Assembly: GCA_031082145.1 (NCBI GenBank)
Contig: JAVHLP010000015.1
Coordinates: forward strand, 1 to 38,693
DNA: 38,693 bases
Source of the DNA: a bacterium
Lineage (GTDB): Bacteria; Bacillota; Sulfobacillia; UBA995
Direction of reading: 5' to 3'
A program made the position numbers and the translations under genes. The notes under the pieces are model-generated. The model was given only the letters and a program-made list of their open reading frames with translations. It did no database searches and had not been told where the DNA came from. Shown here piece by piece: positions 28,094-34,382 of this stretch. Positions within the stretch are counted from its first letter, which is position 1; every line of letters begins with the position of its first letter.

Positions 28094-29398
28094 ATGCTAG
28101 GCGGGGAGGCGGACTCACTGCGTCACGATCGGGACCTATTGGGACCGGTGCCGGTTCCCTCCGGCGCCTACTACGGTGTGCACGCCCTGCGGGCCCGGGC
28201 GAACTTCCCGGGCCTGGGGGGGCCGGTCCATCCCCAGCTGATCCGGGCCATGGCCGAGGTTAAGCGGGCGGGGATCAGGGCCAGCCTGGAGGAGGGGCGG
28301 CTGGATCGCGGGCGGGCCTGGGCCCTGGACCGGGCGGCCGCCGAAGTGGCGACGGGCCACCACGGGGAGAGCTTCATCGTCGACGCCCTGCAGGGCGGGG
28401 CGGGCACGTCTAGCCACCTGAACCTCAACGAGGTGCTCGCTAACCGGGCATGTGAGCTCCTGGGCAGCCGGCCGGGCGACTACCGGCTGGTGCACCCGGT
28501 GGATCACGCCGGGCTGGACCAGTCCACCAACGACGTGTTCCCGACCGCCCTGAGGGTGGCCGCCATGAGGCTGGCCCACCGGGTGGTGGAGTCCCTGGCC
28601 GGCCTGGCGGCCGCCCTCGGCGAGAAGGAGATCGAGTTCGCGGGGGTGCTTAAGCCGGCCCGCACCGAACTCCAGGCCGCGGTACCGGTTAGTCTGGGGC
28701 GCGAGTTCGGGGCCTTCGCCCGCGTGACCGGCCGCGACCGCGACCGGGTGGCCGCCGCCGCCGGGTGGCTAGGCCGGGTGAACCTGGGTGGCACGGCCGT
28801 GGGGACGGGGCTGGGCGCCGCCCCGGGACACCGGCGGCGATCGCTGGCGGCCCTGTGCTCCCTGACCGGGCTGCCCTTGGCGGGGGTGGAGGATCCAGTC
28901 GACGGCACCCAGAACGTCGACGCTTTCCTGGAGTTATCCTCCTCCCTCAAGCTGGCGGCAGCCGATCTGGCCAAGATCGCCCAGGATCTTAGGCTTCTGT
29001 CCTGCCCCGGCTTCGGGGAGATCGAACTGCCACCCCTACAGGCCGGGTCATCCATCATGCCGGGCAAGGTCAACCCGGTCATGACCGAGATGATGGCCCA
29101 GGTGGCCTACCAGGTGATCGGAGCCGATCTGGCTGTCACCCTGGGCGCCCAGGCGGGGCAGCTGGAGCTGAACGCCATGTTGCCCCTCATCGCCCACAAC
29201 CTGTTGGGGGCCCTGGACCTTATGGCCGCCGGGGTGGAGGCCTTTACCGACCGCTGCGTCCGGGGCATCCGGGCCGACGCCGGCCGTTGCGCGCAACTGC
29301 TGCGGGCGAGCCGGGACGACCTGCAGGCGACCCTGGCCGCCGCCCACATCGGCTACGCGGCCGCTTCCCGAATGGCGGGGTCCGATCAGACCGTGTAG
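28094..29398 (+). CDS. Aspartase/fumarase-superfamily lyase, divergent active site
   Basis: A 434-residue lyase closest to aspartate ammonia-lyases. Superfamily signature GSSIMPGKVNPVMTEMM (about 316-332) and DQSTNDVFPTA (142-152) are intact. Other sites deviate: GTSSHLN (104-110) where aspartases have GTSTNMN, and ARTELQAAVP (189-198) where the family has GRT(H/Q)LQDAVP, so Glu192 replaces the usual His/Gln. The C-terminus stops soon after AAHIGYAAASRMAG, about 30-40 residues short of typical aspartases. The ATG at 28094 has no Shine-Dalgarno site; an in-frame CTG (codon 9) lies eight bases after GGGGAGG and would give the family-like start RHDRDLLG. It converges on splB with a 13-bp overlap. 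Confidence 0.82.
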   Translation: MLGGEADSLRHDRDLLGPVPVPSGAYYGVHALRARANFPGLGGPVHPQLIRAMAEVKRAGIRASLEEGRLDRGRAWALDRAAAEVATGHHGESFIVDALQGGAGTSSHLNLNEVLANRACELLGSRPGDYRLVHPVDHAGLDQSTNDVFPTALRVAAMRLAHRVVESLAGLAAALGEKEIEFAGVLKPARTELQAAVPVSLGREFGAFARVTGRDRDRVAAAAGWLGRVNLGGTAVGTGLGAAPGHRRRSLAALCSLTGLPLAGVEDPVDGTQNVDAFLELSSSLKLAAADLAKIAQDLRLLSCPGFGEIELPPLQAGSSIMPGKVNPVMTEMMAQVAYQVIGADLAVTLGAQAGQLELNAMLPLIAHNLLGALDLMAAGVEAFTDRCVRGIRADAGRCAQLLRASRDDLQATLAAAHIGYAAASRMAGSDQTV

Positions 29399-30414
29399 AG
29401 CACGGTGGCCGACGGGAAGGAGCCGGCGATGGCTTTCTCCAAGACCGCCCCCATCTCGCGCCGCAGTGGCCCAGGGTATACGTACTTGCCGTACCCGAAC
29501 TGCCCCCAGCGAAACTCCCGCTCCGCCTCGTCCATGGGTAGCCCGGCGCCGGGGAACAGTTCACCGATGCGAGCCTTGGCCCGGGCGGTGAAGCGGTGGG
29601 TGATCAGCTCGAAGGTCAGGCCCGGGTGGTCGCCCAGACTCCCGGCCAGGCTCCGGATGAGCTGGCGGTACTCGTCCTGCCATCCCTCGGTGGCCATGAT
29701 GGGCGCCACCAGGAAGCCGATCGGGTAGCCGGCTTCCCGCGCTTGCCGGGCGGCCCGCAGCCGGGTCTCAAGATCGGGGGTGCCGCGCTCGAACCGCTCC
29801 ACCAGCGCCGGCGGGTTTACGCTGAAGCGGATCCGGGTGCGTCCCCGGTGCCTGGCCTGGAGCAGGGCCCGGGGGGGAGGGTACTTGGTGGCAAAGCGGA
29901 GAGACGCCCTTGGCAGCCCCGCGAAGTGCTCCACGGCCCGGGCCAGGGAACCGGTGTAGCTCTCGATCGCCACCGGGTCGGAGGTTGCCGACCCCTCGAA
30001 CGAGGTCTCCTCTGGCAGTCGCCCGTCTACCAGGGCGGTTGCCCGGTCGAGGATCTCCTCGAGGTTCACGTAGACCCTCACGTACGGGCGCTTGCCCAGG
30101 GTGGTGAAGAGGTAGCAGTACTGGCAGAGCCCCGGACAGCTGCTGGCCAGGGGGAGTTGATAGTGGGCGGACGGCCGGCAGCCGGCGAAGTCGAGCTGAC
30201 GGCGAACCGCGACCACCAGGGTGCGCTTGGCCTCGAGGAAGGCGGCCCGGGCGGGAAGTCCCCGCCGGACCGGTATCCGGCGATGGGGAGGGAGCATTGC
30301 GACGGGCACGCCCATCGCCCGGAAGCGGTCCCAGAGCTCCTGGCCCAGGGGGTAGCCGAGGGCGTCCGGCTCTAACAGTACCTGCCGGGGAACGAAGTGA
30401 GGCGTGGCCGTCAT
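29386..30414 (-). CDS. splB: Spore photoproduct lyase
   Basis: A 342-residue radical-SAM enzyme that reverses 5-thyminyl-5,6-dihydrothymine in UV-damaged spore DNA. Cluster cysteines Cys93, Cys97 and Cys100 (CPGLCQYC, C-x3-C-x2-C). Overall colinear with Bacillus SplB: QVLLEPDALGYPLGQELWDRF near the start, PYVRVYVNLEEILD, and the end FRWGQFGYGKYVYP. The Bacillus hydrogen-donor Cys141 (FEASCTSD) corresponds to Ala143 here (FEGSATSD), while Cys79 sits just before the cluster motif where Bacillus has Ser. An endospore-specific gene, supporting a spore-forming host. Weak Shine-Dalgarno site at the ATG. Confidence 0.94.
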   Translation of the reverse strand: MTATPHFVPRQVLLEPDALGYPLGQELWDRFRAMGVPVAMLPPHRRIPVRRGLPARAAFLEAKRTLVVAVRRQLDFAGCRPSAHYQLPLASSCPGLCQYCYLFTTLGKRPYVRVYVNLEEILDRATALVDGRLPEETSFEGSATSDPVAIESYTGSLARAVEHFAGLPRASLRFATKYPPPRALLQARHRGRTRIRFSVNPPALVERFERGTPDLETRLRAARQAREAGYPIGFLVAPIMATEGWQDEYRQLIRSLAGSLGDHPGLTFELITHRFTARAKARIGELFPGAGLPMDEAEREFRWGQFGYGKYVYPGPLRREMGAVLEKAIAGSFPSATVLYTV

Positions 30415-30440: not shown

Positions 30441-30476
30441 AAAGAAAGGGACCGGGAGGTGGTGTCCCTCCCGGTC
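30441..30476 (-). terminator. Rho-independent terminator after the subtilase gene
   Basis: Minus-strand stem GACCGGGAGG/CCTCCCGGTC around a 7-base loop, followed by CCTTTCTTT. It sits 15 bases past the subtilase stop and upstream of splB, which therefore needs its own promoter. Confidence 0.8.
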
Positions 30477-30490
30477 TCCTGCGGATCGGC

Positions 30491-32950
30491 CTACGGGCGG
30501 ATCACTGTCACCGGGCCCGACGTCCAGGTGTCCCAGTGGGCCGGGTTGTCATCGTCGCCCAGCGGTTTCTGGACCGAGAGCCGGAGCACGTAGGTGCCGG
30601 CCGGCACCGGACCATTGCGGCCGGAGCCGTCCCACGCCCAGGCGAAGAAGGCCGTGTTGGCGGAACTGCGGCCCATGTAGTCGATGTCTAGCACCCGGCC
30701 GTGAGCGCGGCCGGTGGCGGCGTTAAGCACCTCCACCCGCACTTTCCGGGCCTGGCGGAACAGGTTGAACAGGATGTAGGCGTACTCGCCTTCCTGGGGG
30801 TTGATGGTCAACCCCTCGGCCGGCGCCTTGAAGTAGGAGCTGCCCACCAGGCTGGCCAGCCAGGGGAAGGCGTAGGGGCCCGAACCCAGGACCGGCGCGG
30901 CCAGGTAGTCGCCGCGGAAGCCGCAGTAGGGCACCGAGAGCACCGGGCCGCCGTCGTCGGGGGTGAAGCGGATATAGCCGCCGAAGAGCCAGGTTGTGGC
31001 GGCCAGGTTCACCGTGACTTCCACCGTCGCCTGCTCACCCGGCGCCAGGGTCACCGCCGCCGGGAACGCGGCGGTGGCATAGGCCAGGGCCAGGCCGGGG
31101 CTCAGGATGTTGTTGTTGGTGGCCAGGGCCGGCGCGTGTGAGAGCGTGAAGGTGACTGGCGTATCCCGCTTGTTCTCGATGGTGAGAGCGAAGGCCGCGG
31201 GCCCGGTCACCTCGCCCAGCGACACCTTGGAGGGTTCAATCCTGGCACCCGCCGTCAGGGCGGCCAGCACGTCGGCCATACCGGCTCCCTGCCGGTGCAC
31301 CGCAAGCAGGTAGAGCGGATTGAAGTTCTGCGGTACGGCCGTGTTGCGCAGGGTATCGGCCAGTGCGTTGGGGTTCAGCCGGGGGTTGGCCTGCAGCAGC
31401 AGGGCCGCCGCCCCGGCCACGTGCGGCGCCGACATGCTGGTGCCGCTCAGGGTCGCATAGCCGCCCTTGGCCAGGGGGTAGGGGGCGTAGACGGAACCGC
31501 CCGGGGCGCCTAGGTCGGGCTTGAGGGCCAGGTCGGGGGAGGGACCCCAGGACGAGAAGCTCGAGATCTGCCCGGCCGTCGGGTTGGGAAAGGACATCTT
31601 CTCGTCGGTCCAAGTGAGGGTCACTGGTCCGGCTGCCACCAAGTCGCGGATTGCGATCCCATCCGCCAGACTGATGCTGGCGGCCGGGATGTAGTCGCCC
31701 GGTTCGCCCATGGTGCCGGAGAAATTACCCGGCGCGTTGTTGTGGATGACGCAGGCAACGGCGCCCCTGGCCTGGGCCATTAGCACCTTGTGGCGGAAGG
31801 GTTCAACGCCCCGGCTGCACAACACCACCTTGCCGGCCGCATCCTTACCGGCATAGTCCGCCGCGCTGTTACCGAGGCCGACGTACACCACCTCGGGACT
31901 GGTGCCTGCGGTCGGTAAGTTCGGAGCGAAGGTCATGTGGTTGTAGCCCACCGGGGTGCCGTCCGGCAGCCGGAAGATCGGGCCGGCGGCGTGGGTGTTG
32001 TCAAAGCTGGCCACCGCCAGCACCTTGCTGCCCAGGGCCGGGGCCCCCCCGGCGAAGAGGCCTTGCGGGCCGTTGTTGCCCTGGGAGACAACCACCGCCA
32101 AGCCCTTGTTGACGAGACGGTCGGCGCCCACGGCAGTCGGGTACTGGGGCCACTGGTAGGCGGCGCCGATGCTCATGTTGACCACATCGGCCCCCATGCT
32201 CAGCGCCATCTCCATTGCCGCCAGCATCACGTCGGCGGTCGTGGAACCGGTGGCGCCGAACACCTTCAAGGCCAGGAAGTCGACCCCGGGGGCCACGCCC
32301 CGGGTGGTTCCGCTAGCGCCGACGATGCCGGATACGTGGGTACCATGACCGTTGATGTCCATCGGGTCGGGGTCGGGATAGGGGGTGCGGTTGGCCGGGT
32401 CGCCGGCATTGAAGGCGTCGCCGACGAAGTCCCAGCCGCCGACGACCCGGAAGCCGGGTCCGAATCCCCCACCGAGGTCGGGGTGGTTGTAGTCGATGCC
32501 GGTGTCGATGATGGCCACCAGCACACCCGCGCCGTCATAGCCAAACTCGTCGTAGGCATCGGGCACCCGGAGCATGTCGGTACTGGTGAATAGCTCGGGA
32601 ATGGGGAATTCGACGACCGGCCAGATGGCTTTGACGCCCTTCAGTCGCGCCAGCGCGGCGAGGTCGGCAGTGGCTATCTCCAGGGAGAAGCCGTTGAACA
32701 GGGACTTGTAGGCGTAACGCGGCTTGACCTTGATGCCGGAGCGGCCCAGTTCAGCTTGGAACGAGCCATGTTCGCCGTCCAGTATCCGCAGGGTGCCGCC
32801 GTCGGCCAGGGGACGGCCGGTGAGTTCGACGAAGACGAGGCCGCCCCACTCGCCGGCACCCGTCTCGACCCGCGGGGCGTCGGCGGTGGCCGGTCCCACC
32901 AGCGCTAGGACCAGTACCAGGGCCAGGAACAGGGACAACTTGGCGCGCAC
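30491..32950 (-). CDS. Secreted subtilisin-like serine protease (S8) with PA domain
   Basis: An 819-residue exported protease. Signal peptide 1-24 (ATADA cleavage region), inhibitor-like propeptide to about 120, and catalytic residues Asp149 (AIIDTGIDYNHPDL), His202 (NGHGTHVSGIV), the oxyanion Asn in SQGNNGP and Ser505 (SGTSMSAPHVAGAA). A PA insert lies at about 345-450 (AAGKVVLCSRG, ARGAVACVIHN). The tail holds a fibronectin-like domain (about 545-670) and a FlgD-like Ig fold at the end (AFFAWAWDGSGRNGPVPAGTYVLRL). The start chosen is GTG at 32948-32950, seven bases after AGGAGG; the longer frame would bury the signal peptide. Probably feeds peptides to the neighbouring permease genes. Confidence 0.94.
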   Translation of the reverse strand: MRAKLSLFLALVLVLALVGPATADAPRVETGAGEWGGLVFVELTGRPLADGGTLRILDGEHGSFQAELGRSGIKVKPRYAYKSLFNGFSLEIATADLAALARLKGVKAIWPVVEFPIPELFTSTDMLRVPDAYDEFGYDGAGVLVAIIDTGIDYNHPDLGGGFGPGFRVVGGWDFVGDAFNAGDPANRTPYPDPDPMDINGHGTHVSGIVGASGTTRGVAPGVDFLALKVFGATGSTTADVMLAAMEMALSMGADVVNMSIGAAYQWPQYPTAVGADRLVNKGLAVVVSQGNNGPQGLFAGGAPALGSKVLAVASFDNTHAAGPIFRLPDGTPVGYNHMTFAPNLPTAGTSPEVVYVGLGNSAADYAGKDAAGKVVLCSRGVEPFRHKVLMAQARGAVACVIHNNAPGNFSGTMGEPGDYIPAASISLADGIAIRDLVAAGPVTLTWTDEKMSFPNPTAGQISSFSSWGPSPDLALKPDLGAPGGSVYAPYPLAKGGYATLSGTSMSAPHVAGAAALLLQANPRLNPNALADTLRNTAVPQNFNPLYLLAVHRQGAGMADVLAALTAGARIEPSKVSLGEVTGPAAFALTIENKRDTPVTFTLSHAPALATNNNILSPGLALAYATAAFPAAVTLAPGEQATVEVTVNLAATTWLFGGYIRFTPDDGGPVLSVPYCGFRGDYLAAPVLGSGPYAFPWLASLVGSSYFKAPAEGLTINPQEGEYAYILFNLFRQARKVRVEVLNAATGRAHGRVLDIDYMGRSSANTAFFAWAWDGSGRNGPVPAGTYVLRLSVQKPLGDDDNPAHWDTWTSGPVTVIRP

Positions 32951-33023
32951 GGTGATTCCTCCTTGGGGAGCAGAGTGGAGTGGTGTTCGCCAGGCGCCTA
33001 CCAATTCCCTTTCCTGTAATGTT

Positions 33024-34382
33024 CTAGGGCACGCGGCTATGGCGTCTCCCATAGAGGAAGTAGACGACAAGTCCCGACAGAAGCCAAACCCCGAAGCGCC
33101 ACCAGGTCAGGGAGGGCAGCCGGGACATGAGGTACAGGGCGGTCACCCCGGCCAGGACGGGGAGGTAGGGGACAAGAGGCATCCTGAATGGGCGTCGGAG
33201 GTCAGGGCGGGCTCGCCGGAGCGCGATCACGCCCAGGTTAACCAGGGCAAAGGCGATCAGGGTGCCGATGTTGGCCAGCTCGACCGTCTTGCCGAGGTCA
33301 AGCAAGGCGGCGGCCAGGCCCGTCGCCAACCCGGCCAGGAGAGTAACGGGCTGCCGGGCCCGCGAGAAGAAGGGGGGCAGCAAGCCGTCAGCGGACATCG
33401 CATGCAGGATCCGGCTGAGCCCGAAGAGGCTGACCAACAACACGCTGGTGAGCCCGGCCACGGCTCCCAGGCCCACTACCGGGGCGGCCCAAGCGGCCCC
33501 GGCCCGGCTCAGGGCCACGGTGAGGGGCGAGGGGGTGTCCAGGCTGGCCGAAGGAACCAGCCCGGTGAGCACGGCGGCCACCGCAAGGTAGAGAAGGGTG
33601 GCCGCGAGAAGCGAGCCCACGATCCCCCGGGGCAGATCCCGGCCCGGGTTGCGAGCCTGCCGGGTGGCCGTGGACACCGCGTCAAAGCCGATGAAGGCGA
33701 AGAAGACCAGGGCCGCTCCCCGGGTCACGCCGCCCAGGCCCAGGGGAAGAAGGGGCCGCCAGTGAGCCGGGTCGATCCGGGGTAGGCCCAGGGCCAGGAA
33801 CAGGAATAGCGCGACCAGCTTCACGGCCACCAGTGCCCGGCTGGCACCGAGGCTCTCCCGGAGGCCGGCCAGGAGCAGGGCGGTCAGCGCGATCACGACC
33901 AGGAGGGCGGGCAGGTTGATTAGCCCTCCCGCCGCCGGGGGCGCCGCCAGGTGATGGGGCAACTCCAGGCCGGCCGCGGCCAGGAGCTCAGCAGCATAGG
34001 AGCTCCAGCCGATGGCCACCGCTCCCCCCACCATGGCGTACTCATGAAGGAGGTCCCAGCCGACGACCCAGGCGGCCAGTTCCCCCAGGGCCACGTAGGT
34101 GTAGGTATAGGCGCTGCCCGCGACGGGCACCAGGGCGGCGAGTTCGGCGTAGGCCAGGGCGGTGAGGGAGGCGGTCAGCGCGGCGATGAGCAGCGACAGG
34201 ATGACGCCGGGGCCGGCATAGCGCGCCGCGGCCACTCCCGTCAGCACGAACACCCCGCTGCCCACGACGGCGCCCATGCCGAGGGCAACCAGATCGGGAA
34301 CACCCAAGCCGGAGCCAGGGTACCGTTCCGCGGTCTCGCCCGGAAGGGCCTCTGGGGAACGAGTGCGGAATAGCGAGTTCAC
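33024..34382 (-). CDS. APC-family amino acid permease (cationic-type)
   Basis: A 452-residue secondary transporter with about twelve to fourteen membrane helices. The first helix has the APC substrate loop (LVALGMGAVVGSGVFVLTGVAAARYAGPGV), followed by SFLI-like LIAALTASLTALAYAELAALVPVAGSAYTYTYVALGE and the later FFAFIGFDAVSTATRQARNPGRDLPRGIVGSL. It resembles the CAT/YfnA group, for which cationic or small neutral amino acids are usual. It starts GTG with a poor Shine-Dalgarno site, 18 bp after the D-aminoacylase stop, so coupling is likely. Co-transcription suggests import of free amino acids or N-acyl amino acids. Confidence 0.9.
   Translation of the reverse strand: MNSLFRTRSPEALPGETAERYPGSGLGVPDLVALGMGAVVGSGVFVLTGVAAARYAGPGVILSLLIAALTASLTALAYAELAALVPVAGSAYTYTYVALGELAAWVVGWDLLHEYAMVGGAVAIGWSSYAAELLAAAGLELPHHLAAPPAAGGLINLPALLVVIALTALLLAGLRESLGASRALVAVKLVALFLFLALGLPRIDPAHWRPLLPLGLGGVTRGAALVFFAFIGFDAVSTATRQARNPGRDLPRGIVGSLLAATLLYLAVAAVLTGLVPSASLDTPSPLTVALSRAGAAWAAPVVGLGAVAGLTSVLLVSLFGLSRILHAMSADGLLPPFFSRARQPVTLLAGLATGLAAALLDLGKTVELANIGTLIAFALVNLGVIALRRARPDLRRPFRMPLVPYLPVLAGVTALYLMSRLPSLTWWRFGVWLLSGLVVYFLYGRRHSRVP

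Follow-up and report, generated by a model that had tools for sequence, protein, structure and literature searches.

The locus comprises an open reading frame at positions 29386-30414 on the minus strand of the window (the whole stretch of 38,693 nucleotides that was analysed), which begins with ATG and encodes 342 amino acids followed by a stop codon; ORF translation of the plus strand of the same interval yields no such protein. Upstream on the same strand lies a subtilase gene (30491-33070), and downstream a gene of the Lyase_1 family (28094-29398) runs convergently on the plus strand, and the 3' ends of the two genes share 13 bp. A terminator-like hairpin with a T-rich tail is found on the minus strand between the subtilase gene and the ORF (30441-30476), in a region that folds with -28.9 kcal/mol over a 51-nt stretch (z -3.8). 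Only 26 nt are left from this hairpin to the start codon, too little for the downstream gene to have its own promoter in between, and, judged from the sequence, attenuation or read-through at the hairpin is possible. Sites resembling a sigma-G promoter were also sought: none lies close to the gene, and in the window as a whole they are no more frequent than expected by chance.

Spore photoproduct lyase (SPL) is a radical enzyme that mends UV-damaged DNA during spore germination. On its sequence, the product of 29386-30414 is a true SPL of an ordinary kind and belongs to the clostridial (Cys74-type) variant. Its profile score of 418.5 bits against TIGR04070, the NCBI SPL family, passes the cut-off of 400, and its match to PF20903 (364.6 against a threshold of 27, E 5.4e-109) spans residues 7-340. 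Against TIGR03886, a family of SPL family proteins from proteobacteria, cyanobacteria and others, it scores 96 bits, below the cut-off of 437.55. The radical-SAM motif is present as CPGLCQYCYL at residues 93-102, a CX3CX2C arrangement followed by a tyrosine, in which Cys93, Cys97 and Cys100 are the cluster ligands (C93-PGL-C97-QY-C100, 30115-30138, minus strand as for all codons below) and are invariant in 188 of 188 distinct survey sequences. A fold model of the protein, built with 51 relatives, has a mean pLDDT of 93.3 and adopts the SPL fold over the whole chain, matching Geobacillus SPL structures to within 1.3-1.6 Å over 336 residues with Z scores of 45.5-46.7 (Z 45.5 and 1.5 Å rmsd for PDB 4rh0); unrelated radical SAM proteins come next in the structure comparison, with Z below 15. 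The host genome also contains SASP and SpoVA genes, so the substrate of the enzyme should form in its spores.

In the B. subtilis enzyme the hydrogen donor is Cys141, with Tyr99 and Tyr97 forming the relay (PMC3742179; PMC5368176). Alignment with PDB chains equates these tyrosines with Tyr101 (codon 30112-30114) and Tyr99 (30118-30120) of the window SPL, respectively, both of which are invariant in the survey. The donor cysteine itself is absent. Residues 136-149 read ETSFEGSATSDPVA, and the initial annotation was right to see FEGSATSD, with Ala143 (29986-29988), at the position of Bacillus Cys141 and Geobacillus Cys140, where the Bacillus (Cys141) type carries its donor within FEASCTSD. The protein has four cysteines in total, at positions 79, 93, 97 and 100, of which Cys79 (30178-30180) is the only one outside CX3CX2C. 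It lies shortly before the cluster motif, within residues 72-83 (RQLDFAGCRPSA), and the further claim that the Bacillus protein has no cysteine there is borne out by the serine that occupies this column both in wild-type Geobacillus SPL, by PDB-chain alignment, and in B. velezensis SplB, which has its cysteine at the 143 position. The arrangement found is that of the clostridial (Cys74) type, namely a cysteine at the Geobacillus Ser76 column without one at the 141 column. The same PDB-chain alignment places Cys79 in the engineered S76C column of the Geobacillus SPL in PDB 4rh0, entitled 'C140A/S76C mutant with bound AdoMet', and Ala143 opposite the alanine of the Geobacillus C140A mutants. We take the 4rh0 structure to originate in a study discussed in PMC5368176.

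SPL sequences for comparison, an alignment of which the initial annotation had proposed, were drawn from profile searches of 61 relatives and 398 genomes of the phylum, from a pattern scan of the genome contigs, from the class and from a B. velezensis plasmid record. The 173 distinct SPLs divide into 159 of the Cys79 type and 14 of the Cys143 type, with none having both or neither, in a set that is biased because the contig-scan patterns derived mostly from Cys79-type proteins and because 30 loci taken from the 398-genome search were its top scorers; 40 further genes lower in that list were picked regardless of cysteine. Position 143 in the 159 Cys79-type proteins is always Ala (136) or Ser (23), and the Cys143-type proteins, B. 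velezensis SplB among them, have Ser at 79. The homologous cysteine falls at about residues 72-82 in relatives, given plausible start codons. A chance occurrence of Cys79 is implausible, because the column holds Cys in 159 of 173 SPLs and position 143 is Ala or Ser in every one of these. The view that a 'relocated' cysteine marks the clostridial type therefore needs qualifying: the type fits, but the residue is relocated relative to Bacillus only, being the majority state in Bacillota (159/173). This survey makes the textbook mechanism, that of Bacillus, the less common one in the phylum.

Two further positions switch with the cysteine, an association that may be new. Gln86 (30157-30159) is Gln in 142 of the 159 Cys79-type sequences and Ala in 14 of 14 Cys143-type sequences, and position 96, Leu in the window SPL (30127-30129), is His in all 14 of the latter, whereas most of the former have Met, Lys, Leu or Gln. 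Conversion of one SPL type to the other would begin with residues 86 and 96. Three more distant SPL-family proteins of cyanobacteria and alphaproteobacteria likewise combine Cys143 with His96. The sequences L142, L215 (the same gene as L009) and L219 have Cys143, His96 and Ala86, yet are placed among Cys79-type sequences in the trees, outside the main Cys143 clade. On the best trees the cysteine state changes five times, which suggests repeated switching, or transfer, of the Bacillus-type cysteine. A repeated origin of the Cys143 type was not accepted as established, as the data are still compatible with one clade uniting every ingroup Cys143 type (AU p 0.07) and well-supported branches hold only two independent pairs. 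Proteins carrying the annotation 'spore photoproduct lyase family protein' are themselves of two kinds (L235, L237 and L241 versus L236, L238 and L239): one has the Bacillus-type Cys143, and the other lacks both SPL cysteines and has another motif (GEN.D). On the Roseomonas plasmid p546-2, two adjacent genes with this annotation lie beside repB (L239:390-1738). A search of phage records for SPL returned one weak partial match only.

The sequence, family, fold, residue correspondence and conservation observed here, combined with a chemistry and a donor role for Cys79 that we infer from the Bacillus, Geobacillus and C. acetobutylicum enzymes, point to a clostridial-type SPL in which Cys79 acts as hydrogen donor in place of a cysteine at 143, a reading to which we assign a probability of about 0.9. 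The reduced [4Fe-4S] cluster held by Cys93, Cys97 and Cys100 would split SAM, and the resulting 5'-deoxyadenosyl radical would abstract H6 of the spore photoproduct, whereupon the dimer would break and leave a thymine allylic radical. Cys79, rather than the residue at position 143, would supply a hydrogen to this radical, and the thiyl radical so formed would pass via Tyr101 and Tyr99 to regenerate SAM. Precedent for such a donor comes from C. acetobutylicum, and the initial annotation had correctly pointed to a clostridial enzyme with an N-terminal donor cysteine: PMC5368176 describes an SPL with a conserved C74 instead of C141 (Yang et al. 2017, via PMC5368176). The equivalence of Cys79 with this C74 is probable from the numbering and from its being the sole conserved spare cysteine.

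The same source also supplies the argument for a different role, in which Cys79 would be structural or bind substrate and the thymine radical would be quenched by another residue, solvent or an external reductant. The C. acetobutylicum cysteine is reported there to be poorly placed, with a predicted position on the other side of the pocket from the conserved Tyr, and around 20% of the product leaks as the TpT-SO2- by-product (PMC5368176). Nevertheless, that enzyme still yields around 80% TpT according to the same account, and neither Ala nor Ser at 143 could donate from a thiol. Loss of the donor in the C141A variant of B. subtilis leads to lost repair or to the sulfinate product. The strict exclusivity of Cys79 and Cys143 in 173 sequences is also hard to square with a merely structural residue, whilst it is what would be expected if one donor is required. 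A purely structural or binding role is consequently considered improbable, and donation by Cys79 is preferred.

The host genome contains a second, divergent SPL-family gene, on contig C31 (G000:C31:132745-133761; L002:1483-2502), flanked by an amidase gene on one side and rph-rdgB on the other. Its presence raises the alternative that this paralogue carries out repair, whereas the window gene is decaying or serves another function as an SPL-like radical SAM protein. This is very unlikely, since the paralogue reaches only 207 bits against TIGR04070, compared with 418.5 for the window gene, and 165 against TIGR03886, under both cut-offs. Moreover, the window gene has an open frame, an SPL fold over its whole length and the invariant SPL residues, including R173, R274 and R299, that the paralogue lacks. 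Of the 43 columns whose conservation in SPLs is 97% or more, the 16 distinct members of the paralogue clade keep 31. Position 79 is Asn and position 143 Ser in these proteins, and the cluster motif is followed directly by an invariant Cys104 (CxxxCxxCYLxC). In 16 of 16 the three arginines, almost invariant in SPLs, are replaced (R173 by Thr, R274 by Thr and R299 by Met), which argues against a shared substrate. The clade might be taken as a third, undescribed SPL type, in which case the family would have placed its donor cysteine at 79, 143 or 104 and never at two of these together, although we regard this as unlikely. In ten sampled genomes the paralogue is the only full-length SPL match, and all ten have SASP genes; these were discarded as support for the Cys104 protein being a true SPL, because 344 of the 398 sampled genomes have them overall and they do not discriminate. 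In the first tree the paralogue came out among fast-evolving Cys79 sequences, on a stem 3.3 long; this position was judged unreliable, and later trees were built without the clade. One member, in genome G397 (L184:268-3612), is flanked by yebC and ruvC, with a RuvA-like ORF further on, a setting that fits a role in DNA repair. The paralogue may be a DNA-repair radical enzyme in its own right, and the occurrence in the same genome of a paralogue with neither SPL cysteine may be new.

The window SPL shares with B. subtilis SplB, the C141 type, a common fold, the CX3CX2C motif and the relay tyrosines, whereas the donor of SplB stands at 141 and the cysteine of the window SPL at the Cys79 column; in addition, B. 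subtilis possesses an SplA gene, and a search of the host genome for this gene gave no match. Like the window SPL, the C. acetobutylicum SPL lacks a cysteine at the Bacillus Cys141 position and has a conserved cysteine before the cluster motif together with a conserved tyrosine relay, but the two sequences have diverged, and the window enzyme is known from its sequence and a model. The Cys74-type SPL is already known, and the window enzyme is one more of the majority type in Bacillota. Its cysteine and alanine occupy the same columns as those of the engineered C140A/S76C SPL of Geobacillus thermodenitrificans (4rh0, 4rh1), with 46% identity and 1.5 Å over 336 residues. In contrast to that protein, the window SPL is natural and has its own Gln86 and Leu96, Ala and His being the residues of Bacillus-type enzymes at these positions, and it can be regarded as the natural counterpart of the engineered enzyme.
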